A stretch of DNA of 64,000 nucleotides from Argopecten irradians (Eukaryota > Mollusca > Bivalvia > Pectinida > Pectinidae), in contig NC_091135.1 in NCBI RefSeq assembly GCF_041381155.1, forward strand, positions 69,862,418-69,926,417. Reading direction: 5' to 3'. Made by a program: the position numbers and the translations under genes. Position 1 is the first letter of the stretch. Each line of letters begins with the position of its first letter. Of this stretch, positions 605-59,700 are shown piece after piece. The notes under the pieces were generated by a model. It made no database searches. It saw only the letters and a program-made list of their open reading frames with translations, and was not told where the DNA came from.

Positions 605-730
605 ATTTATATATATATATATAGTGTACATTCTTTTTCCAGAAAAGTCTGTTTACCATTGTCATGTCTGTATTTGTTTTGCACAAAGGCTTTTTAGCCT
701 ATTTGCTAAATGAAATAAAGATTGTATAAT
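2..730 (+). mobile_element. 3' end of a non-LTR retrotransposon (LINE), decayed
   Basis: One reading frame from the window edge to base 490 gives the C-terminal tail of a LINE reverse transcriptase. It carries the motif SPRARCYL, then RKALTKIRTSSHRLYIETGR, then a zinc-knuckle-like CFNC...EDEYHFILEC, which I know from the end of LINE ORF2 proteins in molluscs and corals. Two in-frame stops upstream of the conserved part (near 65 and 95) show that it is dead. A 3' UTR follows with a T run at 559-603, an AT microsatellite and AATAAA near 712. The body lies outside the window. The LINE clade was not determined. Confidence 0.8.
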
Positions 731-16500: not shown

Positions 16501-19500
16501 CTCGTGCGAGACTTCCATAATGATGCTTCCTTTCCACGACCCCTTGACCTCCAGTTTCAAGCTTCCAAATTAGCTGACCCGGGTTCATTGTTGGTAGAGG
16601 CGAGTAAGGAAGCAAGATGTAAGTTGATCTAAAAACGAAGTGTAGAGTTAATTTATGTGTTGAAAATTACACAAAAGGTTTATCACCGCAAATATATATT
16701 GCCACAAATATATTGATAGGTAAGCATTCATTTTATACAATTTTAAAATTCGTCAGAACAGAAATGCTGTTTTAAACTATTAGGTTGATCAATAATTTGA
16801 TAAAATTGTATTGTTTACAAGTAGACTAAAGAAAACATTTGAAGAGAAAATAAAAAAAAACATATTTCAAGATCTGATCTGTATAAGCGTTATAATTAGA
16901 AAGAAGGACAATACATATTTGTACATGTATATCATTACGACTTATACTACATGTAGCATTGTACTTCTATACTAATACAAAACAATCATATGCACTTTCG
17001 TTTCCAGTCGTGGTGATTTTCTGTGATGCTGAACTTCTCCGGACCTTCATGTACCGGGCCTATCAGCTAGGGATGGCTGATGGCGGTTATGTGTTCCTCA
17101 CCATGGAACTATTTCCTAGTGACTGGCTGGGTTACTACACCGAATTCCTACGCAGTATGTAATCCGTTAGTTATACAGTCAATCTGAGAAAGTTACCCAA
17201 CAGGATATGCTGCTCTGGGTTTTATCAAAGGTTTTGAAAATGTTTTGTTGTGTTTGTCACAAAAATAACTTATACTGAGGTTACCGATCACTATGGTTAT
17301 ATTGTGTGAAACAAGAAAAAAAGAGGTCAATTGATTATAAAAGTTTTATTACGAATGTGTCAACCAAAACTGGAATTTAAAAAGAAGAATCGCACTACGA
17401 GCTACAATTTGGTTATTTGCTTGAATCAGTTGTTATTCATTACCTTGAATCAGTTGTTATTCATTACTCGATTATCGAACAAAATATTTAAAAACTAGAA
17501 TGGATAATATTGAAGTATATTTTTATTATGACCTTGATGTTATAATCTCTGACGTAGATGACTACATGGATACTGGAGTGACCAAGGCGTACGAATCTGT
17601 CCTGATACTAACCTTGAGCCAGCCCAACACTACAGAATACAACGCTTTCGCTGAAGAGGTCAAGAGGAGAGCGCTCAGAGACTATAACTATGACTTCGGC
17701 GAGCAAACCGTAGGATTCGAATCACTTTACTACATGACAATCGCATCTTTTTCATAATCGGTGTCGAAAAATAATTCATTAATACTGAAGAAGACATGTT
17801 TTCAAAGTGTTATGGTTATCGATACCGTGAATGTTATGTTTGTATCTGTTAATCTATTGATCCAGTGTTAACACTATTTATAGGTATCGTTATAAGCCCA
17901 AATAACACCATGATATTTAATCAGTTAGACGGCAATGAATGATTTTTTGTTATTTATTTATTTATTTTTTTGTTATTTGAAAATTGTAATATTAAATGAT
18001 TTAATATCTAATTATAAACCCAGTTTTTTATTTTTAAAAGATCGATTTTCTGCTAAATCTAGCTAGGTGTAATTTTATTAAATTTCTTTTGACCAGGTGA
18101 ATTATTTTGTGACAGCCTTCTATGAAGGGGTGTTATATCTGTCCGAAGCCTTTAACCGGACGTTAGCGGACGGACAGAATATCACAGACGGATTGACAGT
18201 CGCCCAGAAACTCTGGAATAGTACATATCCCGGTAAGATACTAAGTAACATAAGATAGTTCTCAAATAGTCAATGTTATATCTAAGCTACATTGTACAAT
18301 TATCAAAGGGTCAATGTTATATATAAACTACATTTTACAGTGACACAATTGTCAATGTTATATCTACATTTACAGTTACTCAAGAGTCAATGTTATATAT
18401 AAACTACATTTTACAGTGACCCAATTGTCAATGTTATATCTACATTTACAGTTACTCGAGAGTCAATGTTATATATAAACTACATTTTACAGTGACCCAA
18501 TTGTCAATGTTATATCTACATTTACAGTTACTCGAGAGTCAATGTTATATATAAACTACATTTTACAGTGACCCAATTGTCAATGTTATATCTACATTTA
18601 CAGTTACTCGAGAGTCAATGTTATATATAAACTACATTTTACAGTGACCCAATAGTCAATGTTTTCTAATATGTTGAAAGTAATAACTGATAATAATATG
18701 CGAATTCCACATCAGATATTGGAATGTAAATTTGAGAATTTGACATCTACGAGTGTAATACTATTACATATTTGTACTTACAGGTATATCCGGAACAGTG
18801 GCGATTGACGAGGTCGGGGATAGACGAGCAGACTTTGATTTCCTAGACATGACGAATCCTGGCAGTAGGACATTCAGGGTAATGGTTCGATCTTCTTATA
18901 CATACCTAGTTTATCCCTAATAGTATGTTCTGTAATGGTGTCTACAACATCTCAAATTATCACGCCATTTTCAACGTAATGGTTGCTGACATTATAACTT
19001 GACATTGTGAATGACAAGTGTTTGCAACTTAGTCAGTTCGCTCCGAAAGCATACAGTTTTGTTGGAAAATCAAGTTTTAAATTAAAATAAGGACGTTATC
19101 TTTATGGGTAAGACTACTCCTCATGGTGATGATCCTTCAGATGTTCTGTTGATACAGGGTTTGTGTTATCTTTGGTCATCCATACATATAGTACTCGATT
19201 CTATACTTAATAGGTCACCAATGGGTGTCTGGCTGGGAAGATCATGATTCATATTTCATTTGTAAATGTTTTCATTCAACAGTGTTTATGAATACCTTTT
19301 ATACATTATTTTATAACACACTTTGATGGATGTTGGTTGATGCCTGTGAGAATCACTGATAAAACAGTTGTATGTACAAACCGAAGGAGATTTGCACTAT
19401 TGGTTTAAAACTCAACATCATGTGTGTCATATTGCGAGCCTATTACACCTAACATAAGCATAGACTTTGTTTGTAGTCAGTAGGTACGTTCCTAGGATCG

Positions 19501-25500: not shown

Positions 25501-28500
25501 TTTTATAGAATGATGATTATTCTTCTGAATATCACAGGTGTCACCAAAACGCACTATTAAATAGCTTATCTATAAATATTGTAAAATTGAATGTTTAAAC
25601 ATTAGCCCTAGGAATGATTAAATGACCGTACGTTACAACTCCTGAAGACAATTAATTTATTTTTTGTTACATCCCCAGATCCGTAGCGGACCAGCTAGAG
25701 TCTGGTCAGCAGGTGTTACCCGAATCCTACAAGTGTGTTACTATATACTTCAGTGACATCGTCGGCTTCACCACCATATCGGCCATGAGCACACCTTTAG
25801 AGGTAATGTCTCCTCTCACATAACTTACTGTAAAAGTACATCTTTGGAGGTAATGTCGCCTCTCACATAACTTACTGTAAAAGTACATCTTTGGAGGTAA
25901 TGTCGTCTATCACAATAACTAACTATAAAAGTACACCTGTGGAGGTAATGTCTTCTATCACAATATCGTATTGTAAAAGTACACTTTGGAGGTTCTGTCG
26001 TCTATCACAATAACTAACTGTAAAAGTACACCTGTGGAGGTAATGTCGTCTATCACAATAACTTACTATAAAAGTACACTTTGGAGGTAATGTCTTCTAT
26101 CACAATAACTTACTGTAAAAGTACACTTTGGAGGTCATGTCTTCTATCACAAAACTTACTGTAAAAGTACACCTGTGGAGGTAATGTCTTCTATAACATA
26201 GCTTACTGTAAAAGTACACCTTTGGAGGTAATGTCGTCTATCACAATAACTTACTGTAAAAGTACACCTTTGGAGGTATTGTCTTCTATCACAATAACTT
26301 ACTGTAAAAGTACACCTGTGGAGGTAATGTCGTCTATCACAATAACTAACTATAAAAGTACACCTGTGGAGGTAATGTCTTCTATCACAATATCGTATTG
26401 TAAAAGTACACTTTGGAGGTTCTGTCGTCTATCACAATAACTAACTGTAAAAGTACACCTGTGGAGGTAATGTCGTCTATCACAATAACTTACTATAAAA
26501 GTACACTTTGGAGGTAATGTCTTCTATCACAATAACTTACTGTAAAAGTACACTTTGGAGGTCATGTCTTCTATCACAAAACTTACTGTAAAAGTACACC
26601 TGTGGAGGTAATGTCTTCTATAACATAGCTTACTGTAAAAGTACACCTTTGGAGGTAATGTCGTCTATCACAATAACTTACTGTAAAAGTACACCTTTGG
26701 AGGTATTGTCTTCTATCACAATAACTTACTGTAAAAGTACACCTGTGGAGGTAATGTCGTCTATCACAATAACTAACTATAAAAGTACACCTGTGGAGGT
26801 AATGTCTTCTATCACAATATCGTATTGTAAAAGTACACCTGTGGAGGTAATGTCGTCTATCACAATAACTTACTGTAAAAGTACACTTTGGAGGTAATGT
26901 CTTCTATCACAATAACTAACTATAAAAGATCACCTTTAGAGGTAATGTCTTCTATCACAATAACTTACTGTAAAAGTACACTTTGGAGGTAATGTCTTCT
27001 ATCACAATAACTAACTATAAAAGATCACCTTTAGAGGTAATGTCTTCTATCACAATAACTTACTGTAAAAGTACACTTTGGAGGTAATGTCTTCTATCAC
27101 AATAGCTAACTATAAAAGTACACCTTTAGAGATAATATCTCCTCTCACATAGCTTACTTTAAAAGTACAACTTTGGAGGTAATGTCTTCTATCACAATAA
27201 CTAACTATAAAAGTACACCTTTAGAGATAATGTCTCCTCTCACATAGCTTACTTTAAAAGTACACTTTGGAGGTAATGTCGTCTATCACAATAACTAACT
27301 ATAAAAGTACACCTTTAGAGATAATGTCTCCTCTCACATAGCTTACTTTAAAAGTACAACTTTGGAGGTAATGTCTTCTATCACAATAGCTAACTATAAA
27401 AGTACACCTTAGAGACACCTTTAGAGATAATGTCTCCTCTCACATAGCTTACTTTAAAAGTACAACTTTGGAGGTAATGTCTCTATCACAATAGCTAACT
27501 ATAAAAGTACACCTTTAGAGATAATGTCTCCTCTCACATAGCTTACTTTAAAAGTACAACTTTGGAGATAATGTCTCCTCTCACAATAACTAACTGTAAA
27601 AGTACACCCTTAGAGATAATGTCTCCTCTCACATAGCTTACTTTAAAAGTACAACTTTGGATGTAATGTCTTCTAATGTCTGTGCTCGTGATATTTTTTC
27701 CACACAAGAAGCGCAGGCGATCTGAATTGTCAGATCAACACATTTGAGTGGTTTTCTTATCTATCATACAGCTCACCGTCAAAGACTCGATTTGGCGTTT
27801 ATGATTACTACAAGTAAGGTGTTACTATTTCCTTGACAACACGTAATTACTGTGTGTTGAATCGTGAAGTGATCTGTTGCACATAGACCATATAATGGTT
27901 AAAGACAATGTGTGTTACTATAGGTTATTTCACTCCCCAGGTGATAGCCCTTCTGAATGAGCTGTACACGTCCTTTGATACCATCATCGACAAGTTTGAC
28001 GTCTACAAGGTAAAATATCTGGTCTTATCACGTTTGAAAATACAATATTGTGCATTTTTATTTTATCTACTGTTAAATGATAGTAAATAATAAAAACATG
28101 GCGTTATAGTTCTTTCTGTTATCAAACACAGGAGCTGATTTAGATTCTATCATTTCCATCGTATATTTAGTATAAGAATAAATCAATGCATGAATTGGTT
28201 AAACATACGTATGTGGATTTAATAACAAACTGAACTTTAAATGTTTTAAGTAGACTGGCCGCAGTCTTTAGAATAATATGAATTTAAGGCAAAGCATCAG
28301 AAGAGCGCAGCTGCATGTAGATACAAGATTATAACTACATAACTTTATATTGTCTACATTTAGCTTACTAAGCTGGGTAACGACGGTAGTCAGGATAGCC
28401 GTCGATATAGTTCCGATTAATGAATGTTATAGCTGCAGTTTGATTTGAAAATAACAATTTTCAATGTTTTTGTCTCTGCGATAGGTCTGAATCCCAAATT

Positions 28501-32167: not shown

Positions 32168-35100
32168 TTATCCGATCAGTTCCCGAGCAGAAAAAATTAG
32201 TTTGTGTCGTCTGCTTTGTTTACTTTTGCGGAAGTGCTTGTCCGTGCCATGCAGCCAGTCGAGAATTCCTAAGACGCCGTAATTACCTGTAAATCTGACA
32301 AAATAAGAAGAAACATTATACAATTTGAAAAGAGATGAAGCATTCTCGTTACTTTCAATAAATACATGCAAACTTCAAAGATCCTGAATGACGTCAATAT
32401 TCGTGTTTTTTTTGTGTTTTTTTTTTACTATTTTAAGCAACACCATATTACACACATCCTATGTAAATGAACATGTATGTAAATCCAGCATTGTTATCAA
32501 ACAGCGCAATACAGAAAAACATGACATAGAGCATTAGAGCATGGCACTGAATTATATAATTACTCACTTCAAATGATGATAGTCGTGGAACTCAGGAGAT
32601 GGTAATAATGGAAGATGGTACCCACTGTGGTGTATCACAGTCACCACCACAGACAGGAAGAGCCACACACCGGAAGTCACCACGTCACATCCGATCACGA
32701 GGGGACCGGTCATTATTGTTCCAAGGTTCGAAAACATGAACTCAACTGGATGTGAGTAGGCAGAAACGAGGCCAAATGGCGCCGTGAAGTCATGATGGAG
32801 CTTGTGATACCGTTTGTACATGAACGGAGAGTGGAGAATTCTGTCAAAGAAAAATAGCAACAATTAATAAACTGGACTGGAGGAGAATGCTTAATAGGAA
32901 AAATACCAACAATTCAAAACGTACAATGACCGAAAAGAGTCTGGGAACAAGATATGAAAAAACTGTAACGCTTTTTATCAATGTTTTTCACATCTTCTTG
33001 TACCATGATATGATTCAAAGACATGTGAAAGTGCTTAACAGAAAGATTATAAACATCTATGGAAAATTCAGATTACACTCACATATATATGTTCCAATAG
33101 CCGAAATGAGACAGAAAAAGAAGTGAAAGCTAATTTCTTTTCACGTGTTGTTGTACCACTGATGGTACAAAAAGATGTGAAAGCATGGTACATAAACATG
33201 TGAAACGACTTACCTTTCACATCTGTCTGTACCATCAGTGGTACAAAAACATGTGAAAGCGTGGTGCATAAACATCAAAGAGTCTGAGCTTTCACATCTT
33301 TTTGTACCATCAGTGGTACAGAAACACTTGAAACCTTGGTACAGAAATATGTGAAAGGAACTTTGAAATGTTGTTATCAAACACCGAGACCAGAGCTGAC
33401 ACTGAATATCAGCGGTTTGATTAGGGCGTCACAACAAGCGTAAAATGTTGTTTCGCACTTCTGAGGAAAAACAGAAATGAAACTATTGTGTTATTTTTCG
33501 GGTGTAACTTGGGCCTAGAATTGTTATCTTAGGGGTCATTCTAATTATGTAGATAATTAAATAAAACGTGGTTTCCAACATTATAGTATTTTTCTTATTG
33601 TTTTTTATGGTGTTTTTCTATGAAGATGTATACAATCTAACTGTTTTATCAGCTTTATCAGGAAGCCATTTGTCAAACCCAGTAACCTTCGAGTCTTTCG
33701 CCTTTTACATGTTTCTGTGCCATGACTGTTTTCGGCCGTTATTTTGGTAAGGAAAGTTATAAAAGTGACTGCTCACATAAATACTGCTTTCACATTTTTG
33801 TGTACCATGCTTTCATATGTATACAGCTGTATTTAGTAACAAGACCATAAGCGACCTATTCATCTTCACTTACTGTTTATCCACACGCTGACATACTATT
33901 CAGAGCATGTCATTACTGTAAACAATGATATCTTGAATCTCTCGTGATATGATTGGGACAGTGATGCTAATTTGAAGAGGACGCCCAAAATCCAACCGGA
34001 GTTTTAAAACTTACCGATGTGAGTAATAGAACGTGACTTCCTCTAGTAGTATACACAGAGAGAGATCCCTAATAAACGGGAGAAGGGCCGGCAGTCCAAG
34101 GGTCTGATCACATCCCCTCCACACTTGTAGGTAATAGTAGACAAACATAAAGGGCAGGTGGATGAGCAGGGAGTTGATGGTAAGCTGACGGAGGACCTTA
34201 CCGACGTCATTGACGGTAACCTATACAATGACATACTAGATCAAAAGAGAGTTGGATTGGTAAGCTGACGGAGGACCTTACCGACGTCATTGACGGTAAC
34301 CTATACAATGACATACTAGATCAAAAGAGAGTTGGATTGGTAAGCTGACGGAGGCCTTACCGACGTCATTGACGGTAACCTATACAATGATATACTAGAT
34401 CAAAAGAGAGGTTGATTGGTAAGCTGACGGAGGACCTTACCGACGTCATTGACGGTAACCTATACAATGACATACTAGATCAAAAGAGAGTTGGATTGGT
34501 AAGCTGACGGAGGACCTTACCGACGTCATTGACGGTAACCTATACAATGATATACTAGATCAAAAGAGAGGTTGATTGGTAAGCTGACGGAGGACCTTAC
34601 CGACGTCATTGACGGTAACCTATACAATGATATACTAGATCAAAAGAGAGGTTGATTGGTAAGCTGACGGAGGACCTTACCGACGTCATTGACGGTAACC
34701 TATACAATGATATACTAGATCAAAAGAGAGGTTGATTGGTAAGCTGACGGAGGACCTTACCGACGTCATTGACGGTAACCTATACAATGATATACTAGAT
34801 CAAAAGAGAGGTTGATTGGTAAGCTGACGGAGGACCTTACCGACGTCATTGACGGTAACCTATACAATGACATACTAGATCAAAAGAGAGGTTGATTAGT
34901 AAGCTGACGGAGGACCTTACCGACGTCATTGACGGTAACCTATACAATGATATACTAGATCAAAAGAGAGGTTGATTGGTAAGCTGACGGAGGACCTTAC
35001 CGACGTCATTGACGGTAACCTATACAATGACATACTAGATCAAAAGAGAGGTTGATTGGTAAGCTGACGGAGGACCTTACCGACGTCATTGACGGTAACC

Positions 35101-38100
35101 TATACAATGATATACTAGATCAAAAGAGAGGTTGATTGGTAAGCTGACGGAGGACCTTACCGACGTCATTGACGGTAACCTATACAATGATATACTAGAT
35201 CAAAAGAGAGGTTGATTGGTAAGCTGACGGAGGACCTTACCGACGTCATTGACGGTAACCTATACAATGATATACTAGATCAAAAGAGAGGTTGATTGGT
35301 AAGCTGACGGAGGACCTTACCGACGTCATTGACGGTAACCTATACAATGACATACTAGATCAAAAGAGAGGTTGATTGGTAAGCTGACGGAGGACCCTTC
35401 CGACGTCATTGACGGTAACCTATACAATGACATACTAGATCAAAAGAGAGGTTGATTGGTAAGCTGACGGAGGACCTTACCGACGTCATTGACGGTAACC
35501 TATACAATGATATACTAGATCAAAAGAGAGGTTGATTGGTAAGCTGACGGAGGACCTTACCGACGTCATTCACGGTAACCTATACAATGATATACTAGAT
35601 CAAAAGAGAGTTGGATTGGTAAGTCAACAAATAGTTTACGTTAAACTCTACAGGATAATAAAGATGGTCATTTGACGAAAGACTTTCGAGAAAAGGCCGT
35701 TCGCTTATTTCTCTGTCCTTACATTCTTAATTGACAAAGGCTGCATTGCCGTATCTTCCTTAAAGTCAAATATCAAGAAGAGCTTTTATTTCTTGTATTC
35801 ATCATCAAAAATCATTTTGAGAATTACAATTCTTTTAATGCATAAGTTTTAATTTACAAGAACATATAAGAGCTGATAATGACGTTTGTCTGTACTGCCA
35901 AAAGTATTATATTTACATCTACAGCACAGTGAAATGTATTGAGTACATATGGTCAGGCCATGCAGCTAAGTTGTCGTCTACAATTTCATATCACATTTGT
36001 ACTGTGTTATTAGTAATTATTTCTGCGGGTATGTTTCCATCTAAACATACATATGGCAAAAAAGAAAGATGTTTACGGTTCATAAACTCTGTGTACTTAC
36101 TAATATATACAAGGCACCATACGTGTTTGTCTGTCCAATGATTTACCCAGCTTAATTCATCAAATCCTATGCGTTGTAATAGATTGATGAAGACACAATA
36201 ACATAAAAAAAATTCCGCCTAGTTTCGGGTCATATGACTTGTTAAATCTGATTTTTGTTTAAACATCATGATCAATATTTAGCTGTATTACCTTGTAGTT
36301 CTCTGGAGATTGAGTCTTAAACTTAAGCATCCATTTTGGTTTTCCAGTCAAATCCGGAATCAAGAAAAGAAATCCTGTCCCAAAGTAGGCGACAACCAAA
36401 ACAGAGCTTAGAACTGAAAACAAATCAATCATAAAAGTGATCAATGATTTGTACAAATTAGTCATAACAGTGACAAATGATTTGTACAAATCAGTCACGA
36501 CAGTGATCAATGATTTGTACAAATTAGTCATAACAGTGACAAATGATTTGTACAAATCAGTCACGACAGTGATAAATGATTTGTACAAATTAGTCAAAAC
36601 AGTGATAAATGATTTGTACAAATCAGTCACGACAGTGATAAATGATTTGTACAAAATAGTCATAACAGTGATAAATGATTTGAACAAATCAGTCGTGACA
36701 GTGATCAATGATTTGTACAAATCAGTCATAACAGTGATCAATGATTTGTGCAAATCAGTCGTGACAGTCATCAATGATTTGTGAAAATCAGTCGTGACAG
36801 TAGTCAATGATATGTACAAATAAGTCGTGACATAGTGACCAATGATTTGTACAAATCAGTCGTGACAGTGATGACTGATTTGTACAAATCAGTTGTGACA
36901 GTGGTCAACGATTTGTACAAATCAGTCGTGAGAGTGATCAATGATTTGTACAAATCAGTCATGACAGTGATCAATGATTTGTACAAATCAGTCGTGACAG
37001 TGCTCAATGACTTGTACAAATCAGTCGTGACAGTGATAATTGATTTGTACAAATCAGTCATGACACAGAGATCGATGGTTTGTACACCAGTCGTGACACA
37101 GTGGTCAATGATTAATACATACAAATCAGTCGTGACAGTGGTCAATGATTTGTACAAATCAGTCGTGACAGTGGTCAATGATTTGTACAAATCAGTCGTG
37201 ACAGTGATAAATGATTTGTACAAATCAGTCGTGACAGTGGTCAATGATTTGTACAAATCAGTCGTGACAGTGATCAATGATTTGTACAAATCAGTCGTGA
37301 CAGTGATTAATGATTTGTACAAATCAGTCGTGACAGTGATCAATGATTTGTACAAATCAGTCGTGACGGTGTTCAATGAATTGTACAAATCAGTCGTGAC
37401 AGTGATCAATGACTTGTACAAATCAGTCGTGACAGTGATCAATGATTTGTACAAATCAGTCATGACACAGTGATCGATGGTTTGTACATCAGTCGTGACA
37501 CAGTGATCAATGATTTATACAAATCAGTCGTGACAGTGATTAATGATTTATACAAATCAGTCGTAACAGTGATAAATGATTTGAACAAATTAGTCGTAAC
37601 AGTGATCAATGATTTGTACAAATCAGTCATGACAGTGATAAATGATTTGTACAAATCAGTCGTGACAGTGATGATTGATTTGTACAAATCAGTCATGACA
37701 CAGAAATCGATGGTTTGTACACCAGTCGTACCACAGTGGTCAATGATTTATACAAATCAGTTGTGACAGTTGTCAATGATTTGTACAAATCAGTCGTGAC
37801 ATTGGTCAATGATTTGTACAAATCAGTCGTGACAGTGATAAATTATTTGTACAAATCAGTCGTGACAGTGGTCAATGATTTGTACAAATCAGTCGTGACA
37901 GTGATCAATGATTTGTACAAATCAGTCGTGACAGTAATTAATGATTTTTACAAATCAGTCGTGACAGTGATCAATGATTTGTACAAATCAGTCGTGACGG
38001 TGTTCAATGACTTGTACAAATCAGTCGTGACAGTGATCAATGAATTGTACAAATCAGTCGTGACAGTGATCAATGATTTGTACAAATCAGTCATGACACA

Positions 38101-39921
38101 GTGATCGATGGTTTGTACATCAGTCGTGACACAGTGATCAATGAATTATACAAATCAGTCGTGACAGTGATTAATGATTTATACAAATCAGTCGTAACAG
38201 TGGTTAATGATTTGAACAAATTATTCGTAACAGTGATCAATGATTTGTACAAATCAGTCACGACAGTGATAAATGATTTGTACAAATCAGTCGTGACAGT
38301 GCTCAATGACTTGTACAAATCAGGCGTGACAGTGATGATAGATTTGTACAAATTAGTCGTAACAGTGATCAATGATTTGTACAAATCAGTCGTGACAGTG
38401 CTCAATGACTTGTACAAATCAGTCGTGACAGTGATTAATGATTTGTACAAATCAGTCGTGACAGTGATTAATGATTTGTACAAATCAGTCGTGACAGTGA
38501 TCAATGACTTGTACAAATCAGTCGTGACAGTGATCAATGATTTGTACAAATCAGTCGTGACAGTGATCAATGACTTGTACAAATCAGTCGTGACAGTGAT
38601 CAATGATTTGTACAAATCAATCGTGACAATGCTCAATGACTTGTACAAATCAGTCGTGACAGTGATCAATGATTTGTACAAATCAATCGTGACAATGCTC
38701 AATGACTTGTACAAATCAGTCGTGACAGTGATCAATGATTTGTACAAATCAATCGTGACAATGCTCAATGACTTGTACAAATCAGGCGTGACAGTGATGA
38801 TAGATTTGTACAAATTAGTCGTAACAGTGATCAATGATTTGTACAAATCAGTCGTGACAGTGCTCAATGACTTGTACAAATCAGTCGTGACAGTGATTAA
38901 TGATTTGTACAAATCAGTCGTGACAGTGATTAATGATTTGTACAAATCAGTCGTGACAGTGATCAATGACTTGTACAAATCAGTCGTGACAGTGATCAAT
39001 GATTTGTACAAATCAGTCGTGACAGTGATCAATGACTTGTACAAATCAGTCGTGACAGTGATCAATGATTTGTACAAATCAATCGTGACAATGCTCAATG
39101 ACTTGTACAAATCAGTCGTGACAGTGATCAATGATTTGTAAACATATCTAAAGGATGGATATTACTGTCATACTCGTCGATTATATTTGAAAACCGTGGT
39201 AGGTGATACACATAAGGGATTGTTTTACTCGATCCTATGTCTATTCCTTTGGAAAGAGGGAACCATTTCATTGAATACTGGTTTCAATACTAATACACTT
39301 TTGGAACTTGCAAAAATATCTTCGATTCACATACAGCTTTTGGTAATTAAACATCATTGAAAAATATCCGTAACTACAATTTTCCATATTCAAATTTTAT
39401 ATCTAATAATTATAAGATGTTTCTACTGTAATATAGCATAAACAACACGTATCTTATGTATTTTGCCATGTACTAAAAGAAATTGATAAATCCATTTTCC
39501 TATTTCTGTTCAATAGTATTCAATGATATAAATAAAACAGTTGCCTCCCTTTAATCAGGAAAGCGCCGTCGGGTACACAATGCATAACGTTTCAATGGAA
39601 GCTAACTGTCTTGGCTTCCAGTGCAATTTAAATGTGTGGAGTTATATATAGCAAACCCATTTTAAAACTACATTTGTGAGTTTTCAGTTTGAGAACATCT
39701 TCTGTACTTTGCATGATTATGACACACAGAACAACTAGTATGTTTTGAAGTCATTCAAAAAGCATCAAATATTGGAGTATCGGCGAAACAAGCGAAATGT
39801 GATTTCTTTTCAAAAACAAAAACAAATATCTAAATAAAAAAGCAGGTTAATTAAACTTACTTGCTGTATTTTGAAACCACTCCGACTTCAGGAAATCGAC
39901 GAGACTCGAGGTTTCCGCCAT
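32168..39921 (-). CDS. Fatty acid hydroxylase domain protein, FAXDC2/sterol-desaturase family (5 exons, 262 aa)
   Basis: This is a predicted ER membrane di-iron oxygenase acting on a lipid or sterol; the substrate is unknown. Exons in order: 39861-39921, 36292-36413, 34015-34220, 32568-32840, 32168-32294. All junctions are GT-AG and in phase. The start is ATGGCGG in good context. Hydrophobic segments are SVLVVAYFGTGFLFLI, INSLLIHLPFMFVYYY and LVIGCDVVTSGVWLFLSVVV. The metal-binding histidines are all present: HRILH (129-133), HKLHH (142-146), HHSGYH (200-205) and HDYHH (215-219). NYGVLGILDWLHGTD near the C-terminus is typical of the family. The protein is shorter than human FAXDC2 (about 333 aa), mostly at the N-terminus. 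Two introns carry minisatellites that touch splice sites. The gene sits between two copies of one MITE. Confidence 0.93.
32985..33340. repeat. Tandem palindromes (about 76-bp spacing) in a hydroxylase intron
   Basis: At 33137-33182, 33213-33258 and 33289-33334 the sequence TTTCACAT...TGTACCA, a 4-base centre, and TGGTACA...ATGTGAAA forms a stem. A looser copy lies at 32985-33032, and half copies near 33790. The spacing of 76 bases between centres suggests tandem growth of a palindrome. Confidence 0.8.
34179..35625. repeat. 80-bp minisatellite that copies the exon 3 acceptor of the hydroxylase gene
   Basis: About 18 units lie directly upstream (in gene sense) of exon 3. The first unit includes the first 42 coding bases of that exon (34179-34220) and its acceptor. 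On the minus strand every unit has TATAG|GTTACCGTCAATGAC and then CGTCGGTAAGGTCC, so each copy holds an acceptor and also a GTAAGG that could act as a donor. Two variants (GACATACTAG or GATATACTAG; GTTGGATTGG or GGTTGATTGG) are mixed along the array. Using a distant acceptor would read into TGA within one unit, so only the copy next to the full exon gives the protein. Confidence 0.94.
35626..36291. other. Rest of hydroxylase intron 2
   Basis: The sequence is AT-rich, with no recognisable repeat, RNA or coding segment. The 70-codon open frame at 35929-36141 (+) has no domain-like pattern and is antisense to the intron, so I do not call it a gene. Confidence 0.5.
36420..39140. repeat. 33-bp minisatellite (about 82 units) in hydroxylase intron 1, abutting the exon 2 acceptor
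   Basis: The unit is GTGATCAATGATTTGTACAA then ATCAGTCGTGACA. The first unit starts at about 36420, five bases from the acceptor dinucleotide at 36414-36415, so the pyrimidine tract and any branch site come from repeat DNA. The 33-base unit stays open in frame on both strands (KSVVTVINDLY, and SLITVTTDLYK on the other). Larger duplications are visible: a segment with ATCGATGGTTTGTACA recurs about 631 bases apart (37461, 38092), and one with CAGGCGTGACAGTGATGATA recurs 462 bases apart (38322, 38784). Confidence 0.95.
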
Positions 39922-47693: not shown

Positions 47694-47789
47694 ATACTGA
47701 ATTTATCTCCAATGTTAATTCTTTTTAAAAAGATTTGATTGGTCTACATGATGAAGATTACTGGGATAAATATGATTTCTCAACGGTAA

Positions 47790-50700
47790 ATTGTGTGATA
47801 GTTGTACCCAGACTGTGTAATGTAAATTGTGTGATAGTTGTACCCAGACTGTGTAATGTAAATTGTTGTGATAGTTGTACCCAGACTGTGTAATGTAAAG
47901 TGTGTGATAGTTGTACCCAGACTGTGTAATGTAAATTGGTGTGATAGTTTAACGCCAGACTGTGTAAGGGATATTATGATAGTTGTACCCAGACTGTGTA
48001 ATGTAAATTGTGTGTGATAGTTGTACCCAGACTGTGTAAATGTAGTGATAGTGATAGTCTGTACCCAGACTGTGTAATGTAAAGTGTGTGATAGTTGTAC
48101 CCACACTATGTAATGTAAATGTGTGTGATAGTTGTACCCAGACTGTGTAATGTAAATTGTGTGATAGTTGTACCCAGACTGTGTAATGTAGTGTGTGATA
48201 GTTGTACCCAGACTGTGTAATGTAAATTGTGTGATAGTTTTACCCAGACTGTGTAATGTAAATTGTGTGATAGTTGTACCCAGACTGTGTAATGTAAAGT
48301 GTGTGATAGTTGTACCCAGAACTGTGTAATGTAAATTGTGCGATAGTTTTACCCAGACTGTGTAATGTAAGTTTGTGTGATAGTGATTGTACCCAGACTG
48401 TGTACCCAGACTGTTAGTGTGTGATAGTTGTACCCCAGACTGTGTAATGTAAAATTGTGTGATAGTTGTACCCAGACTGTGTAATGTAAATTGTGTGATA
48501 GTTGTACCCAGACTGTGTAATGTAAATTGTGTGATAGTTGTACCCAGACTGTGTAATGTAAAGTGTGTGATAGTTGTACCCAGACTGTGTAATGTAAATT
48601 GTGTGATAGTTGTACCCAGACTGTGTAATGTAAAGTGTGTGATAGTTGTACCCAGACTGTGTAATGTAAATTGTGTGATAGTTGTACCCAGACTGTGTAA
48701 TGTAAAGTGTGTGATAGTTGTACCCAGACTGTGTAATGTAGTAGTGTGTGTATAGTAGTTGTACCCAGACTGTGTAATGTAAACCCCAGACTGTGTGATA
48801 TTGTGTTGTTGTACCCAGACTGTGTGTAATGTGATAGTTGTGACTGTGTAATGTAAAGTGTGTAGTTGTACCCAGACTGTGTAATGTAAAGTGTGTGATA
48901 GTTGTACCCAGACTGTCTAATGTAAAGTGTGTGATAGGTGTGCCTAGACTGTGTAATGTAAAGTGTGTGGTAGTTGTACCCAGACTGTGTAATGTAAATT
49001 GTGTGATAGTTGTACCCAGACTGTGTAATGTAAAGTGTGTGATAGTTGTACCCAGACTGTGTAATGTAGTGTAAAGTGTGTGATAGTTGTACCCAAGACT
49101 GTGTAATGTAAATAAAGTGTGTGATAGTTGTACCCAGACTGTGCTAATGTAACAGTGTGTGATAGTTGTACCCAGACTGTGTAATGTAAAGTGTGTGATA
49201 GTTGTACCCAGACTGTGTAATGTAAATTGTGTGATAGTTGTACCCAGACTGTGTGTATATGTAAATGTGTAATGTAAATTGTGTGATAGTTGTACCCAGA
49301 CTGTGTAATGTAAATTGGTGTGATAGTTGTACCCAGACTGTGTAATGTAAAGTGTGTGATAGTTGTACCCAGACTGTGTAATGTAAAGTGTGTGATAGTT
49401 GTACCCAGACTGTGTAATGTAAATTGTGTGATAGTTGTACCCAGACTGTGTAATGTAGTGTGTGATAGTTGTACCCAGACTGTGTAATGTAAATTGTGTG
49501 ATAGTTGTACCCAGACTGTGTAATGTAAAGTGTGTGATAGTTGTACCCAGACTGTGTAATGTAAATTGTGTGATAGTTGTACCCAGACTGTGTAATGTAA
49601 ATATGTGTGATAGTTGTACCCAGACTGTGTAATTTAAAGTGTGTGATAGTTGTGACCTGTGTAATTAGTGTGTGATAGTTGTACCCAGACTGTGTAATGT
49701 AAATGTGTGTGATAGTTGTACCCAAACTGTGTAATGTAAAGTTGTGTGATAGTTGTACCCAGACCTGTGTAATGTAAATGTGTGATAGTTGTACCCAGAC
49801 TGTTCTAATGTCAAGTGTGTGATAGTTGTACCCCAGACTGTGTAAATGTAAATAATGTAAATTGTGATAGTGTACCCAGACTGTGTAATGTAAATTGTGT
49901 GATAGTTGTACCCCAGGGAACTGTGTAATGTAAATTGCGTGATAGTTGTACCCAGATAGTTGTACCCAGACTGTGTAATGTAGAAGTGTGTGATAGTTGT
50001 ACCCAGACTGTGTAATGTAAAGTGTGTGATAGTTGTACCCAGACTGTGTAATGTAAAGTGTGTGATAGTTGTACCCAGACTGTGTAATGTAAATTGTGTG
50101 ATAGTTGTACCCAGACTGTCTAATGTAAAGTGTGTGATAGTTGTACCCAGACTGTGTAGTGTAAATTGTGTGATAGTTGTACCCAGACTGTGTAATGTAA
50201 ATTGTGATAGTTGTATTCAGACTGTGTAATGTAAAGTGTGTGATAGTTGTACCCAGACTGTGTAATGTAAATTGTGTGATAGTTGTACCCAGACTGTGTA
50301 ATGTAAATTGTGTGATAGTTGTACCCAGACTGTGTAATGTAAAGTGTGTGATAGTTGTACCCAGACTGTGTAATGTAAATTGTGTGATAGTTGTACCCAG
50401 ACTGTGTAATGTAGTGTGTGATAGTTGTACCCAGACTGTGTAATGTAAATTGTGTGATAGTTGTACCCAGACTGTGTAATGTAAATTGTGTGATAGTTGT
50501 ACCCAGACTGTGTAATGTAAGTGTGTGATAGTTGTACCCAGACTGTGTAATGTAAATTGTGTGATAGTTGTAACCCAGACTGTGTAATGTAAATTGTGTG
50601 ATAGTTGTACCCAGACTGTGTAATGTAAAGTGTGTGATAGTTGTACCCAGACTGTGTGTAATGTAAACTGTGTATTGTGTGATAGTTGTACCCAGACTGT

Positions 50701-53700
50701 GTAATGTAAATTGTGTGATAGTTGTACCCAGACTGTGTAATGTAAAGTGTGTGATAGTTGTACCCAGACTGTGTAATGTAAAGTGTGTGATAGTTGTACC
50801 CAGACTGTGTAATGTAAATTGTGTGATAGTTGTACCCAGACTGTGTAATGTAAATTGTGTGATAGTTGTACCCAGACTGTGTAATGTAAAGTGTGTGATA
50901 GTTGTACCCAGACTGTGTAATGTAAAGTGTGTGATAGTTGTACCCAGACTGTGTAATGTAGTGTTGTGATAGTTGTACCCAGACTGTGTAATGTAAATTG
51001 TGTGATAGTTGTACCCAGACTGTGTAATGTAAATTGTGTGATAGTTGTACCCAGACTGTGTAATGTAAAGTGTGTGATAGTTGTACCCAGACTGTGTAAT
51101 GTAAATTGTGTGATAGTTGTACCCAGCCAGACTGTGTAATGTAAAGTGTGTGATAGTTGTACCCAGACTGTGTAATGTAAATTGTGTGATAGTTGTACCC
51201 AGACTGTGTAATGTAAAGTGTGTGATAGTTGTACCCACACTGTGTAATGTAAATTGCGTGATAGTTGTACCCAGACTGTGTAATGTAAATTGTGTGATAG
51301 TTGTACCCAGACTGTGTAATGTAAATTGTGTGATAGTTGTACCCAGACTGTGTAATGTAAAGTGTGTGATAGGTGTGTACCCAGACTGTGTAATGTAAAG
51401 TGTGTGATAGTTGTACCCAGACTGTGTAATGTAAATTGTGTGATAGTTGTACCCAGACTGTGTAATGTAAATGTGTGTGATAGTTGTACCCAGACTGTGT
51501 AATGTAAATTGTGTGTGATAGTTGTACCCCAGACTGTGTAATGTAAAGTGTGTGATACCCAGACTGTGTAATGTAAAGTGTGTGATAGTTGTACCCAGAC
51601 TGTGTAATGTAAATTGTGTGTGATAGTTGTACCCAGACTGTGTAATGTAAAGTGTGTGATATAGTTGTACCCAGACTGTGTAATGTAAGTGTGTGATAGT
51701 TGTACCCAGACTGTGTAATGTAAAGATTGTGTGATAGTTGTACCCAGACTGTGTAATGTAAAGTGTGTGATAGTTGTACCCAGACTGTGTAATGTAAAGT
51801 GTGTGATAGTTGTACCCAGACTGTGTAATGTAAAGTGTGTGATAGTTGTACCCAGACTGTGTAATGTAAATTGTGTGATAGTTGTACCCAGACTGTGTAA
51901 TGTAAATTGTGTGATAGTTGTACCCAGACTGTGTAATGTAAATTGTGTGATAGTTGTACCCAGACTGTGTAATGTAAAGTGTGTGATAGTTGTACCCAGA
52001 CTGTGTAATGTAAATTGTGTGATAGTTGTACCCAGACTGTGTAATGTAAATTGTGTGATAGTTGTACCCAGACTGTGTAATGTAAATTGTGTGTGATAGT
52101 TGTACCCAGACTGTCTAATGTAAATTGTGTGATAGTTGTACCCAGACTGTGTAATGTAAATTGTGTGATAGTTGTACCCAGACTGTGTAATGTAGTGTGT
52201 GATAGTTGTACCCAGACTGTGTAATGTAAAGTGTGTGATAGTTGTACCCAGACTGTGTAATGTAAAGTGTGTGATAGTTGTACCCAGACTGTGTAATGTA
52301 AAGTGTGTGATAGTTGTACCCAGACTGTGTAATGTAAATTGTGTGATAGTTGTACCCAGACTGTGTGACTGTGTACTGTGTAAAATTGTGTGATAGTTGT
52401 ACCCAGACTGTGTAATGTAAATTGTGTGATAGTTGTACCCAGACTGTGTAATGTAAATTGTGTGATAGTTGTACCCAGACTGTGTAATGTAAAGTGTGTG
52501 ATAGTTGTACCCAGACTGTGTAATGTAGTGTGTGATAGTTGTACCCAGACTGTGTAATGTAAAGTGTGTGATAGTTGTACCCAGACTGTGTAATGTAAAG
52601 TGTGTGATAGTTGTACCCAGACTGTGTAATGTAAATTGTGTGATAGTTGTACCCAGACTGTGTAATGTAAATTGTGTGATAGTTGTACCCAGACTGTGTA
52701 ATGTAAAGTGTGTGATACTTGTACCCAGACTGTGTAATGTAAATTGTGTGATAGTTGTACCCAGACTGTGTAATGTAAAGTGTGTGATAGTTGTACCCAG
52801 ACTGTGTAATGTAAATTGTGTGATAGTTGTACCCAGACTGTGTAATGTAAATTGTGTGATAGTTGTACCCAGACTGTGTAATGTAAATTGTGTGATAGTT
52901 GTACCCAGACTGTGTAATGTAAAGTGTGTGATAGTTGTACCCAGACTGTGTAATGTAGTGTGTGATAGTTGTACCCAGACTGTGTAATGTAGTGTGTGAT
53001 AGTTGTACCCAGACTGTGTAATGTAAAGTGTGTGATAGTTGTACCCAGACTGTGTAATGTAGTGTGTGATAGTTGTACCCAGACTGTGTAATGTAAATTG
53101 TGTGATAGTTGTACCCAGACTGTGTAATGTAAATTGTGTGATAGTTGTACCCAGACTGTGTAATGTAAATTGTGTGATAGTTGTACCCAGACTGTGTAAT
53201 GTAAATTGTGTGATAGTTGTACCCAGACTGTGTAATGTAAATTGTGTGATAGTTGTACCCAGACTGTGTAATGTAAAGTGTGTGATAGTTGTACCCAGAC
53301 TGTGTAATGTAAATTGTGTGATAGTTGTACCCAGACTGTGTAATGTAAATTTTGTGTGATAGTTGTACCCAGACTGTGTAATGTAAATTGTGTGATAGTT
53401 GTACCCAGACTGTGTAATGTAAAGTGTGTGATAGTTGTACCCAGACTGTGTAATGTTAATTGTGTGATAGTTGTACCCAGACTGTGTAATGTAAAGTGTG
53501 TGATAGTTGTACCCAGACTGTGTAATGTAAAGTGTGTGATAGTTGTACCCAGACTGTGTAATGTAAATTGTGTGATAGTTGTACCCAGACTGTGTAATGT
53601 AAATGTGTGTGATAGTTGTACCCAGACTGTGTAATGTAAAGCTTGTATGTGTGTGTGATAGTTGTACCCAGACTGTGTAATGTAAAGTGTGTGATAGTTG

Positions 53701-56700
53701 TACCCAGACTGTGTAATGTAAATTGTGTGTGATAGTTGTACCCAGACTGTGTAATGTAAATTGTGTGATAGTTGTACCCAGACTGTGTAATGTAAATTGT
53801 GTGATAGTTGTACCCAGACTGTGTAATGTAAAGTGTGTGATAGTTGTACCCAGACTGTGTAATGTAAATTGTGTGATAGTTGTACCCAGACTGTGTAATG
53901 TAAAGTGTGTGATAGTTGTACCCAGACTGTGTAATGTAAAGTGTGTGATAGTTGTACCCAGACTGTGTAATGTAAAGTGTGTGATAGTTGTACCCAGACT
54001 GTGTAATGTAAATTGTGTGATAGTTGTACCCAGACTGTGTAATGTAAAGTGTGTGATAGTTGTACCCAGACTGTGTAATGTAAAGTGTGTGATAGTTGTA
54101 CCCAGACTGTGTAATGTAAAGTGTGTGATAGTTGTACCCAGACTGTGTGTAATGTGTGATAGTTGTACCCAGACTGTGTAATGTAAAGTGTGTGATAGTT
54201 GTACCCAGACTGTGTAATGTAAAGTGTGTGATAGTTGTACCCAGACTGTGTAATGTAAATTGTGTGATAGTTGTACCCAGACTGTCTAATGTAAAGTGTG
54301 TGATAGTTGTACCCAGACTGTGTAATGTAAATTGTGTGATAGTTGTACCCAGACTGTGTAATGTAAAGTGTGTGATAGTTGTACCCAGACTGTGTAATGT
54401 AAAGTGTGTGATAGTTGTACCCAGACTGTGTAATGTAAAGTGTGTGATAGTTGTACCCAGACTGTGTAATGTAAAGTGTGTGATAGTTGTACCCAGACTG
54501 TGTAATGTAAAGTGTGTGATAGTTGTACCCAGACTGTGTAATGTAAAGTGTGTGATAGTTGTACCCAGACTGTGTAATGTAAATTGTGTGATAGTTGTAC
54601 CCAGACTGTGTAATGTAAAGTGTGTGATAGTTGTACCCAGACTGTGTAATGTAAATTGTGTGATAGTTGTACCCAGACTGTGTAATGTAAATTGTGTGAT
54701 AGTTGTACCCAGACTGTGTAATGTAAATTGTGTGATAGTTGTACCCAGACTGTGTAATGTAAAGTGTGTGATAGTTGTACCCAGACTGTGTAATGTAAAT
54801 TGTGTGATAGTTGTACCCAGACTGTGTAATGTAAATTGTGTGATAGTTGTACCCAGAACTGTGTAATGTAAAGTTGTGTGATAGTTGTACCCAGACTGTG
54901 TAATGTAAAGTGTGTGATAGTTGTACCCAGACTGTGTAATGTAGTGTGTGATAGTTGTACCCAGACTGTGTAATGTAAAGTGTGTGATAGTTGTACCCAG
55001 ACTGTGTAATGTAAAGTGTGTGATAGTTGTACCCAGACTGTGTAATGTAAATTGTGTGATAGTTGTACCCAGACTGTGTAATGTAAAGTGTGTGATAGTT
55101 GTACCCAGACTGTGTAATGTAAAGTGTGTGATAGTTGTACCCAGAGACTGTGTAATGTAAATTGTGTGATAGTTGTACCCAGACTGTGTAATGTAAATTG
55201 TGTGATAGTTGTACCCAGACTGTGTAATGTAAATTGTGTGATAGTTGTACCCAGACTGTGTAATGTAAATTGTGTGATAGTTGTACCCAGACTGTGTAAT
55301 GTAAAGTGTGTGATAGTTGTACCCAGACTGTGTAATGTAAATTGTGTGATAGTTGTACCCAGACTGTGTAATGTAGTGTGTGATAGTTGTACCCAGACTG
55401 TGTAATGTAAAGTGTGACTGTGTGATAGTGTTGTTACCCAGACTGTGTAATGTAAATTGTGTGATAGTTGTACCCAGACTGTGTAATGTAAAGTGTGTGA
55501 TAGTTGTACCCAGACTGTGTAATGTAAAGTGTGTGTATAGTTGTACCCAGACTGTGTAATGTAAATTGTGTGATAGTTGTACCCAGACTGTGTAATGTAA
55601 AGTGTGTGATAGTTGTACCCAGACTGTGTAATGTAAAGTGTGTGATAGTTGTACCCAGACTGTGTAATGTAAATTGTGTGATAGTTGTACCCCACTGACT
55701 GTGTAATGTAAATTGTGTGATAGTTGTACCCAGACTGTGTAATGTAAATTGTGTGATAGTTGTACCCAGACTGTGTAATGTAAATTGTGTGATAGTTGTA
55801 CCCAGACTGTGTAATGTAAAGTGTGTGATAGTTTTACCCAGACTGTGTAATGTAAAGTGTGTGATAGTTGTACCCAGACTGTGTAATGTAAATTGTGTGA
55901 TAGTTGTACCCAGACTGTGTAATGTAAAGTGTGTGATAGTTGTACCCAGACTGTGTAATGTAAATTGTGTGATAGTTGTACCCAGACTGTGTAATGTAAA
56001 GTGTGTGATAGTTGTACCCAGACTGTGTAATGTAAATTGTGTGATAGTTGTACCCAGACTGTGTAATGTAAAGTGTGTGATAGTTGTACCCAGACTGTGT
56101 AATGTAAAGTGTGTGATAGTTGTACCCAGACTGTGTAATGTAAATTGTGTGATAGTTGTACCCAGACTGTGTAATGTAAATTGTGTGATAGTTGTACCCA
56201 GACTGTGTAATGTAAATTGTGTGATAGTTGTACCCAGACTGTGTAATGTAAAGTGTGTGATAGTTGTACCCAGACTGTGTAATGTAAAGTGTGTGATAGT
56301 TGTACCCAGACTGTGTAATGTAAATTGTGTGATAGTTGTACCCAGACTGTGTAATGTAAAGTGTGTGATAGTTGTACCCAGACTGTGTAATGTAAAGTGT
56401 GTGATAGTTGTACCCAGACTGTGTAATGTAAAGTGTGTGATAGTTGTACCCAGACTGTGTAATGTAAAGTGTGTGATAGTTGTACCCAGACTGTGTAATG
56501 TAAATTGTGTGATAGTTGTACCCAGACTGTGTAATGTAAAGTGTGTGATAGTTGTACCCAGACTGTGTAATGTAAATTGTGTGATAGTTGTACCCAGACT
56601 GTGTAATGTAAAGTGTGTGATAGTTGTACCCAGACTGTGTAATGTAAAGTGTGTGATAGTTGTACCCAGACTGTGTAATGTAAATTGTGTGATAGTTGTA

Positions 56701-59700
56701 CCCAGACTGTGTAATGTAAATTGTGTGATAGTTGTACCCAGACTGTGTAATGTAAATTGTGTGATAGTTGTACCCAGACTGTGTAATGTAAAGTGTGTGA
56801 TAGTTGTACCCAGACTGTGTAATGTAAAGTGTGTGATAGTTGTACCCAGACTGTGTAATGTAAAGTGTGTGATAGTTGTACCCAGACTGTGTAATGTAAA
56901 TTGTGTGATAGTTGTACCCAGACTGTGTAATGTAAATTGTGTGATAGTTGTACCCAGACTGTGTAATGTAAAGTGTGTGATAGTTGTACCCAGACTGTGT
57001 AATGTAAATTGTGTGATAGTTGTACCCAGACTGTGTAATGTAAAGTGTGTGATAGTTGTACCCAGACTGTGTAATGTAGTGTTGTGATAGTTGTACCCAG
57101 ACTGTGTAATGTAAAGTGTGTAATAGTTGTACCCAGACTGTGAGATAGTTGTACCAAGACTGTGTAAAGTGTGTGATAGTTGTACCCAGACTGTGTAATG
57201 TAAATTGTGTGATAGTTGTACCCAGACTGTGTAATGTAAATTGTGTGATAGTTGTACCCAGACTGTGTAATGTAAATTGTGTGATAGTTGTACCCAGACT
57301 GTGTAATGTAAAGTGTGTGATAGTTGTACCCAGACTGTGTAATGTAAATTGTGTGATAGTTAAGTGTGTGATAGTTGTACCCAGACTGTGTAATGTAAAG
57401 TGTGTGATAGTTGTACCCAGACTGTGTAATGTAAATTGTGTGATAGTTGTACCCAGACTGTGTAATGTAAATTGTGTGATAGTTGTACCCAGACTGTGTA
57501 ATGTAAAGTGTGTGATAGTTGTACCCAGACTGTGTAATGTAAATTGTGTGATAGTTGTACCCAGACTGTGTAATGTAAATTGTGTGATAGTTGTACCCAG
57601 ACTGTGTAATGTAAAGTGTGTGATAGTTGTACCCAGACTGTGTAATGTAAAGTGTGTGATAGTTGTACCCAGACTGTGTAATGTAAATTGTGTGATAGTT
57701 GTACCCAGACTGTGTAATGTAAATGTGTGTGATAGTTGTACCCAGACTGTGTAATGTAAATTGTGTGATAGTTGTACCCAGACTGTGTAATGTAAATTGT
57801 GTGATAGTTGTACCCAGACTGTGTAATGTAAAGTGTGTGATAGTTGTACCCAGACTGTGTAATGTAAATTGTGTGATAGTTGTACCCAGACTGTGTAATG
57901 TAAATTGTGTGATAGTTGTACCCAGACTGTGTAATGTAAATTGTGTGATAGTTGTACCCAGACTGTGTAATGTAGTGTGTGATAGTTGTACCCAGACTGT
58001 GTAATGTAAATTGTGTGATAGTTGTACCCAGACTGTGTAATGTAAATTGTGTGATAGTTGTACCCAGACTGTGTAATGTAAATTGTGTGATAGTTGTACC
58101 CAGACTGTGTAATGTAAAGTGTGTGATAGTTGTACCCAGACTGTGTAATGTAGTGTGTGATTGTTGTACCCAGACTGTGTAATGTAAATTGTGTGATAGT
58201 TGTACCCAGACTGTGTAATGTAAAGTGTGTGATAGTTGTACCCAGACGTAATGTAGTGTGATAGTTGTACCCAGACTGTGTAATGTAAATTGTGTGATAG
58301 TTGTACCCAGACTGTGTAATGTAAAGTGTGTGATAGTTGTACCCAGACTGTGTAATGTAAAGTGTGTGATAGTTGTACCCAGACTGTGTAATGTAAATTG
58401 TGTGATAGTTGTACCCAGACTGTGTAATGTAAAGTGTGTGATAGTTGTACCCAGACTGTGTAATGTAAATTGTGTGATAGTTGTACCCAGACTGTGTAAT
58501 GTAAATTGTGTGATAGTTGTACCCAGACTGTCTAATGTAAAATGTGTGATAGTTGTACCCAGACTGTGTAATGTAAAGTGTGTGATAGTTGTACCCAGAC
58601 TGTGTAATGTAGTGTGTGATAGTTGTACCCAGACTGTGTAATGTAAAGTGTGTGATAGTTGTACCCAGACTGTGTAATGTAAAGTGTGTGATAGTTGTAC
58701 CCAGACTGTGTAATGTAAATTGTGTGATAGTTGTACCCAGACTGTGTAATGTAAATTGTGTGATAGTTGTACCCAGACTGTGTAATGTAAAGTGTGTGAT
58801 AGTTGTACCCAGACTGTGTAATGTAAAGTGTGTGATAGTTGTACCCAGACTGTGTAATGTAAATTGTGTGATAGTTGTACCCAGACTGTGTAATGTAAAT
58901 TGTGTGATAGTTGTACCCAGACTGTGTAATGTAAAGTGTGTGATAGTTGTACCCAGACTGTGTAATGTAAATTGTGTGATAGTTGTACCCAGACTGTGTA
59001 ATGTAAATTGTGTGATAGTTGTACCCAGACTGTGTAATGTAAATTGTGTGATAGTTGTACCCAGACTGTGTAATGTAAAGTGTGTGATAGTTGTACCCAG
59101 ACTGTGTAATGTAAAGTGTGTGATAGTTGTACCCAGACTGTGTAATGTAAAGTGTGTGATAGTTGTACCCAGACTGTGTAATGTAAATTGTGTGATAGTT
59201 GTACCCAGACTGTGTAATGTAAATTGTGTGATAGTTGTACCCAGACTGTGTAATGTAAAGTGTGTGATAGTTGTACCCAGACTGTGTAATGTAAATTGTG
59301 TGATAGTTGTACCCAGACTGTGTAATGTAAAAGTGTGTGATAGTTGTACCCAGTACTGTGTAATGTAAATTGTGTGATAGTTGTACCCAGACTGTGTAAT
59401 GTAAATTGTGTGATAGTTGTACCCAGACTGTGTAATGTAAATTGTGTGATAGTTGTACCCAGACTGTGTAATGTAAATTGTGTGATAGTTGTACCCAGAC
59501 TGTGTAATGTAATTTGTGTGATAGTTGTACCCAGACTGTGTAATGTAAATTGTGTGATAGTTGTACCCAGACTGTGTAATGTAAATTGTGTGATAGTTGT
59601 ACCCACACTATGTAATGTAGTGTGTGATAGTTGTACCCAGACTGTGTAATGTAAATTGTGTGATAGTTGTACCCAGACTGTGTAATGTAAATTGTGTGAT

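Follow-up and report, generated by a model that had tools for sequence, protein, structure and literature searches.

A probable "mirage" in a bay scallop hydroxylase gene: a minisatellite built from a splice acceptor and the start of its exon

Tandem duplications of intron/exon borders are known from amphioxus, where the resulting minisatellite-like arrays were named "mirages" (PMC3087553, in excerpt). The amphioxus genes in which they are described are Adh3, the globins BflGb6 and BflGb9, troponin C and PGBD5, and the excerpts of the two papers concerned (PMC3087553, PMC3902484) cite Canestro 2002 for the first report. Amphioxus RT-PCR suggests that such border arrays leave splicing normal (PMC3087553, in excerpt). 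A copy number that is unstable between alleles is typical of such arrays, and homogenized inner units beside divergent end units also count among their marks. Two related cases come from other organisms: in a potato RdRp gene, an intron was gained via tandem duplication of an intron/exon border (PMC4974935, in excerpt), and in human genes within segmental duplications, internal tandem repeats occur at exon-intron borders (PMC2812944, in excerpt). Among the titles and opening lines of abstracts of the literature matches listed, which covered few subscription papers, no report of border-spanning arrays in molluscs was found. A human minisatellite with many splice donors, that of the gene 6-16 (IFI6), was reportedly described by Turri in 1995. 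In the literature reached, the arrays named mirages come from amphioxus genes; the arrays of the bay scallop reported here are a further case of this already known kind, and they add repeated examples on both the acceptor and the donor side.

The window is the whole stretch of 64,000 nucleotides of the bay scallop, Argopecten irradians, that was analyzed; it lies in contig C2 of the assembly searched (846 Mb, 1508 contigs). A 175-residue query joined from two myosin stretches of this assembly matched five PDB sequences of bay scallop equally well (1dfk, 1dfl, 1b7t, 1kk7, 1qvi), with identity over 174 residues in the four alignments displayed and lower scores for the next chains; a search for mitochondrial COX1 gave no match. 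A five-exon gene model on its minus strand (Table 1) yields an open frame of 262 residues if the authentic acceptor of exon 3 is used. The product contains a fatty acid hydroxylase domain (Pfam, E 3.8e-23) and presumably resembles FAXDC2. A separate 33-bp array of about 82 copies (36420-39140), which holds no exon bases, stops 7 bases upstream of exon 2 of this gene, inside the polypyrimidine tract.

Intron 2 of the hydroxylase gene ends in 18 units of 80 bp arranged head to tail on the minus strand. The array is far above chance, with a Tandem Repeats Finder (TRF) score of 2755 and 97% matches at a period of 80 and 18.2 copies. Each unit combines 38 intron bases, among them the acceptor TATAG, with the first 42 bases of exon 3. 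TATAG followed by GTTACC occurs 18 times on the minus strand, the first start being at 35579 and the last at 34220, and successive starts are 80 bases apart with a single exception of 79. The description of this locus in the first-pass annotation, as 18 copies of an acceptor plus 42 coding bases, is confirmed by both TRF and a reading of the units; the real exon 3 begins at 34220, however, so that the number 18 includes the authentic exon, and the remaining 17 starts are decoys. The 3' splice site TATAG is kept in all 18 units, and, taken over all 17 decoys, the 42 exon-derived bases show five changes, including a 1-base deletion. The internal GTAAGG attributed to every unit holds with one exception: GGTAAGG is present in 16 of the 17 decoys and lost in the one starting at 35419. 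The acceptor and the internal donor are 19 bases apart, which is the length of a candidate decoy exon, and the acceptor of each unit lies 61 bases downstream of the internal GTAAGG of the preceding unit (80 minus 19).

Table 1. Features of the hydroxylase gene and of the neighboring gene in the window, and border-crossing arrays found in other genes
Feature	Position in window	Strand	Basis or description
Hydroxylase exon 1, with start codon	39861..39921	-	gene model
Hydroxylase exon 2	36292..36413	-	gene model
Authentic hydroxylase exon 3 (copied part is the first 42 bases, 34179-34220)	34015..34220	-	gene model, unit reading
Hydroxylase exon 4, carrying the hydroxylase histidine motifs	32568..32840	-	gene model, domain match
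Hydroxylase exon 5, with stop codon	32168..32294	-	gene model
80-bp array, 18 acceptor-plus-exon starts	34173..35623	-	TRF and unit reading
Stretch with the 17 candidate decoy exons of 19 bases (starts from 35579 to 34300)	34282..35579	-	unit reading, splice scoring
Exonic CTTACCA, putative one end of the founding duplication	34178..34184	-	36 bp inside exon 3
Intronic CTTACCA, putative other end of the founding duplication	35617..35623	-	44 bp upstream of the most distal acceptor
47-bp donor-side array, guanylate cyclase gene (starts with the exon's last 12 bases and the donor)	25791..27675	+	TRF, reading
L041, acceptor side			60-bp unit, at least 25 copies
L053, acceptor side			74-bp unit, 4.6 copies
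L075, acceptor side			31-bp unit, 12.5 copies
L080, acceptor side			88-bp unit, 7.2 copies
L025, donor side			21-bp unit, 2.0 copies
L050, donor side			29-bp unit, about 36 copies
L061, donor side			33-bp unit, 3.6 copies
L069, donor side			25-bp unit, 3.4 copies

The ends of the unit carry a trace of how the array may have begun. When the array is collapsed to a single-copy site, the 7-bp sequence CTTACCA occurs twice, 44 bp before the exon 3 border and 36 bp into the exon, with exactly 80 bp between the two copies, and the switch from exon to intron sequence in the array copies falls within this motif. If a breakpoint is placed at random in this stretch, the probability of a match of at least 6 bp is 0.002; six acceptor-spanning pairs of that length or more are present, of which the CTTACCA pair is the longest. 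The likeness to the exon runs, with gaps, beyond base 42 (exon CTTACC-ATC-AACTC, intron CTTACCAATCCAACTC), and this extension explains the end point of the unit. Taken together, the CTTACCA pair points to a founding duplication that was probably mediated by microhomology. The earlier proposal that the array was seeded at a splice acceptor is borne out in that the duplication spans the acceptor and TATAG recurs in every unit.

The favored reading, held with a probability of roughly 0.8, is that the 80-bp array is a mirage, that is, a minisatellite that arose when an intron/exon border was duplicated in tandem. The sequence itself indicates the first step, in which duplication between the two CTTACCA copies would have taken in the end of the intron, the acceptor and the start of exon 3. 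The copy nearest the exon would have retained the acceptor together with the full exon, and because of that the gene is probably still working, while the extra copy would have turned into intron. Unequal exchange or slippage may then have expanded the array to 18 units, as the 97% identity and the order of the variants suggest: of the four decoy units closest to the exon, three have the founder-type CCAAC, as does the distal flank, with another form elsewhere, at what are few informative sites. Finally, exon 2 would still be spliced to the authentic exon 3, and decoy products, with their early stops, would be degraded. The array is most likely without function.

The resemblance to the amphioxus mirages is close. 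The scallop unit likewise spans an intron/exon border, with 42 exon and 38 intron bases, and holds AG/GT signals; its composition is that of the BflGb6 array, in which the 3' end of an intron and the 5' part of an exon are repeated (PMC3087553, in excerpt). Furthermore, acceptor-side and donor-side forms both occur in amphioxus, as they do in the scallop. The differences lie in the host, a mollusc as opposed to a cephalochordate, in copy number (18 units compared with 6 and 3 in two BflGb6 haplotypes, according to the excerpts) and in unit size (80 bp compared with 10-72 bp in Adh3 and 150-160 bp in BflGb6, from the same excerpts). The potato duplication also copied the end of an intron, the acceptor and the start of an exon, with GTAAG in the exon part, and the scallop copies supply both the acceptor and a putative donor for a new intron; in potato, however, a single duplication took place and the new intron was proven by RNA reads, whereas the scallop array has 17 extra copies that are candidates for such introns (PMC4974935, in excerpt). 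The human internal tandem repeats share minisatellite-size units that alter gene structure at borders, but their units are mostly within exons and polymorphic, with a mean of 4 repeats of 30 bp (PMC2812944, in excerpt). With scallop mirages it becomes possible to test how splicing singles out one of many nearly identical sites, and how frequently new introns arise from tandem duplication at exon borders.

A second border array is present in the neighboring plus-strand gene, for which a Pfam match confirmed a guanylate cyclase domain. One exon of this gene ends ACACCTTTAGAG at 25802, followed directly by the donor GTAATG at 25803. The donor array annotated there earlier proved real; its units are of 47 bp, and it starts inside the exon. 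It is of the same kind as the 80-bp acceptor array, but on the donor side. As such, it also resembles the human 6-16 (IFI6) minisatellite, which reportedly holds many copies of one splice site; that minisatellite is said to be on the donor side and to have short units, unlike the 80-bp acceptor array. A further array in the guanylate cyclase gene, of 76 bp and about 5 copies (18241-18663), starts 9 bases past the exon end at 18232.

The frequency of such arrays in other genes was estimated at exon edges marked by Pfam matches to hydroxylase, myosin, guanylate cyclase, kinesin and SNF transporter profiles, in regions taken irrespective of repeats. The profile matches listed numbered 7, 82, 121, 130 and 121 (461 in total), from which 137 were picked by eye as lying in fetched sequence (130 of them inside the regions), followed by 16 more. 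Matches to p450 were left out of the survey, and other hydroxylase loci were scanned for arrays only. An early pass covered 128 exons and 256 edges, 219 of which passed a simple splice-site filter. The first set comprised 68 regions, 127 exons and 254 edges, with two loci excluded: L012, which is the gene in the window itself, and L070, the latter left out as the presumed, unaligned duplicate contig of L071; the full set comprised 74 regions, 258,650 bases, 143 exons, 286 edges and 91 arrays. Part of the regions are biased toward short introns because they were chosen for exon density.

Border-crossing arrays were found at eight of the 286 edges in other genes, or about 3%, four on the acceptor side and four on the donor side (Table 1), the edges being two per profile match, some of which are domain ends and not splice sites. 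The window holds two at roughly 45-50 edges, a number estimated from the reading of open reading frames without a check of each edge. The locus-wide tendency proposed in the first-pass annotation was therefore set at the wrong scale: the window is near the genome rate, and border-spanning arrays are a feature of the whole genome. Two candidates, L033 and L048, were dropped since their arrays begin downstream of the real donor, and L086 and L088 were not counted, as their arrays reach or nearly reach the acceptor without including exon bases. The 55-bp units at L086 (C9:1769712-1770000) include TTTCAG, which resembles the authentic acceptor of the SNF transporter exon lying immediately downstream, but none of that exon's bases. 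L070 (C673) and L071 (C8:3605776-3608991), which were compared unaligned, gave matches of equal length and near-equal score, which suggests the presence of second haplotypes among the small contigs.

A preference of arrays for exon borders is suggested by comparison with uniform placement. In the first set, 8 border arrays were observed and 3.63 expected (P = 0.03), an observed/expected ratio of 2.2 whose bootstrap interval, 0.87-3.87, includes 1; in the full set, 8 were observed and 4.19 expected (P = 0.063). Under copy-number cuts that were chosen after the data had been seen, the full set gave 7 observed and 2.29 expected for arrays of at least 2.5 copies (P = 0.009), and 7 observed and 1.80 expected for those of at least 3 copies (P = 0.0026). 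Thus, the excess of exon-edge arrays over random placement, the comparison by which the earlier annotation was to be judged, appears among multicopy arrays under a post hoc cut, whereas all arrays together reach only P = 0.06. Exon borders could be a preferred birthplace or refuge of tandem arrays, through a mutational bias or through selection on the real exon copy that preserves one end of an array, with the 80-bp array as one product. This reading is less likely than not: the counts above and further arrays with an end at most 10 bases from a border (at 36420 and 18241 in the window, at L048 and at L088) favor it, but the bootstrap interval, the result for the full set, the post hoc cut and the use of match ends in place of annotated splice sites weigh against it. 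Moreover, uniform birth accounts for much of the border arrays, because a duplication that crosses a border leaves the gene intact. Somewhat doubtful for the present is also the broader view that, with about 3% of borders bearing border-copying arrays and the multicopy ones above uniform placement, borders are real hot spots or refuges and the genome is stocked with spare splice sites; if true, this would amount to a large standing stock of splice sites as a source of new exons and introns.

Splice sites were scored against a weight matrix built on 102 acceptors and 81 donors sampled from the bay scallop genome. The decoy acceptors score 6.9-7.1 and the authentic exon 3 acceptor 7.1 (27th-31st percentile), and the decoy donor TCG|GTAAGG scores 5.50 (7th percentile of the 81 donors), compared with 6.57 (9th percentile) for the real exon 2 donor, these percentiles being only rough because the matrix sites were chosen by a simple rule. 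The real donor at 25803 in the neighboring gene scores 5.61; since real donors nearby are about as weak, the weakness of the decoy donor alone does not bar its use. The 19-base decoy exon previously proposed is possible on paper, but its donor ranks low, and insertion of one or three such exons in silico led to a stop at codon 72. Splicing in silico to 4 of the 17 decoy acceptors (34300, 34379, 34459 and 35579) led to stops at codons 81, 92, 81 and 81, respectively. RNAs with such early stops are most likely degraded. The authentic acceptor would be expected to win, because no other acceptor is followed by a complete exon that has a donor.

That the array acts in splicing, its decoys serving as stepping points within the intron or diverting some transcripts to decay and so tuning output, is improbable. 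The retention of every acceptor (18) and of all internal donors but one (16 of 17), and the near-equal scores of decoy and authentic acceptors, would fit such a role, as would the potato duplication of the same design, which gave a working intron with the exonic GTAAG as its donor (PMC4974935, in excerpt). However, conservation says little when copies are this similar, with five changes in the exon part, and the decoy donor is weak, with all six translated decoy products ending at codons 72-92.

Even less credible is an assembly artefact or a badly wrong copy number. Near-identical repeats are difficult to assemble, yet the units bear distinct changes in a structured order, and other genes and contigs also have border-spanning arrays, built of quite different units. 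A two-unit query of the assembly, in a search that passes over very common words and assigns scores to the top candidates only, gave 7 matches, all within the array itself, and accordingly found no second allele of it among the candidates scored. Although the window is rich in long arrays, it is exceedingly improbable that the unit derives from a mobile element, or from a dispersed satellite, by chance insertion at the border, as it holds the hydroxylase gene's own exon sequence, and a dispersed mobile element was rejected because the query's matches, among the candidates scored, were confined to its own array.

Other repeats and one mobile element-like gene were noted in the window. An open reading frame on the minus strand at 8843-9598 matched the Pfam family Phage_integrase (E 3.8e-7), with DUF3504 below the cutoff, and is perhaps part of a Crypton-like tyrosine recombinase element; the two adjoining open reading frames had no Pfam match. 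A 41-bp array of about 184 copies occupies 7.5 kb at 725-8249. At the opposite end, a 36-bp array of about 450 copies with a strong GC skew runs from 47786 to 64000, spanning at least 16 kb and continuing beyond the end of the window.
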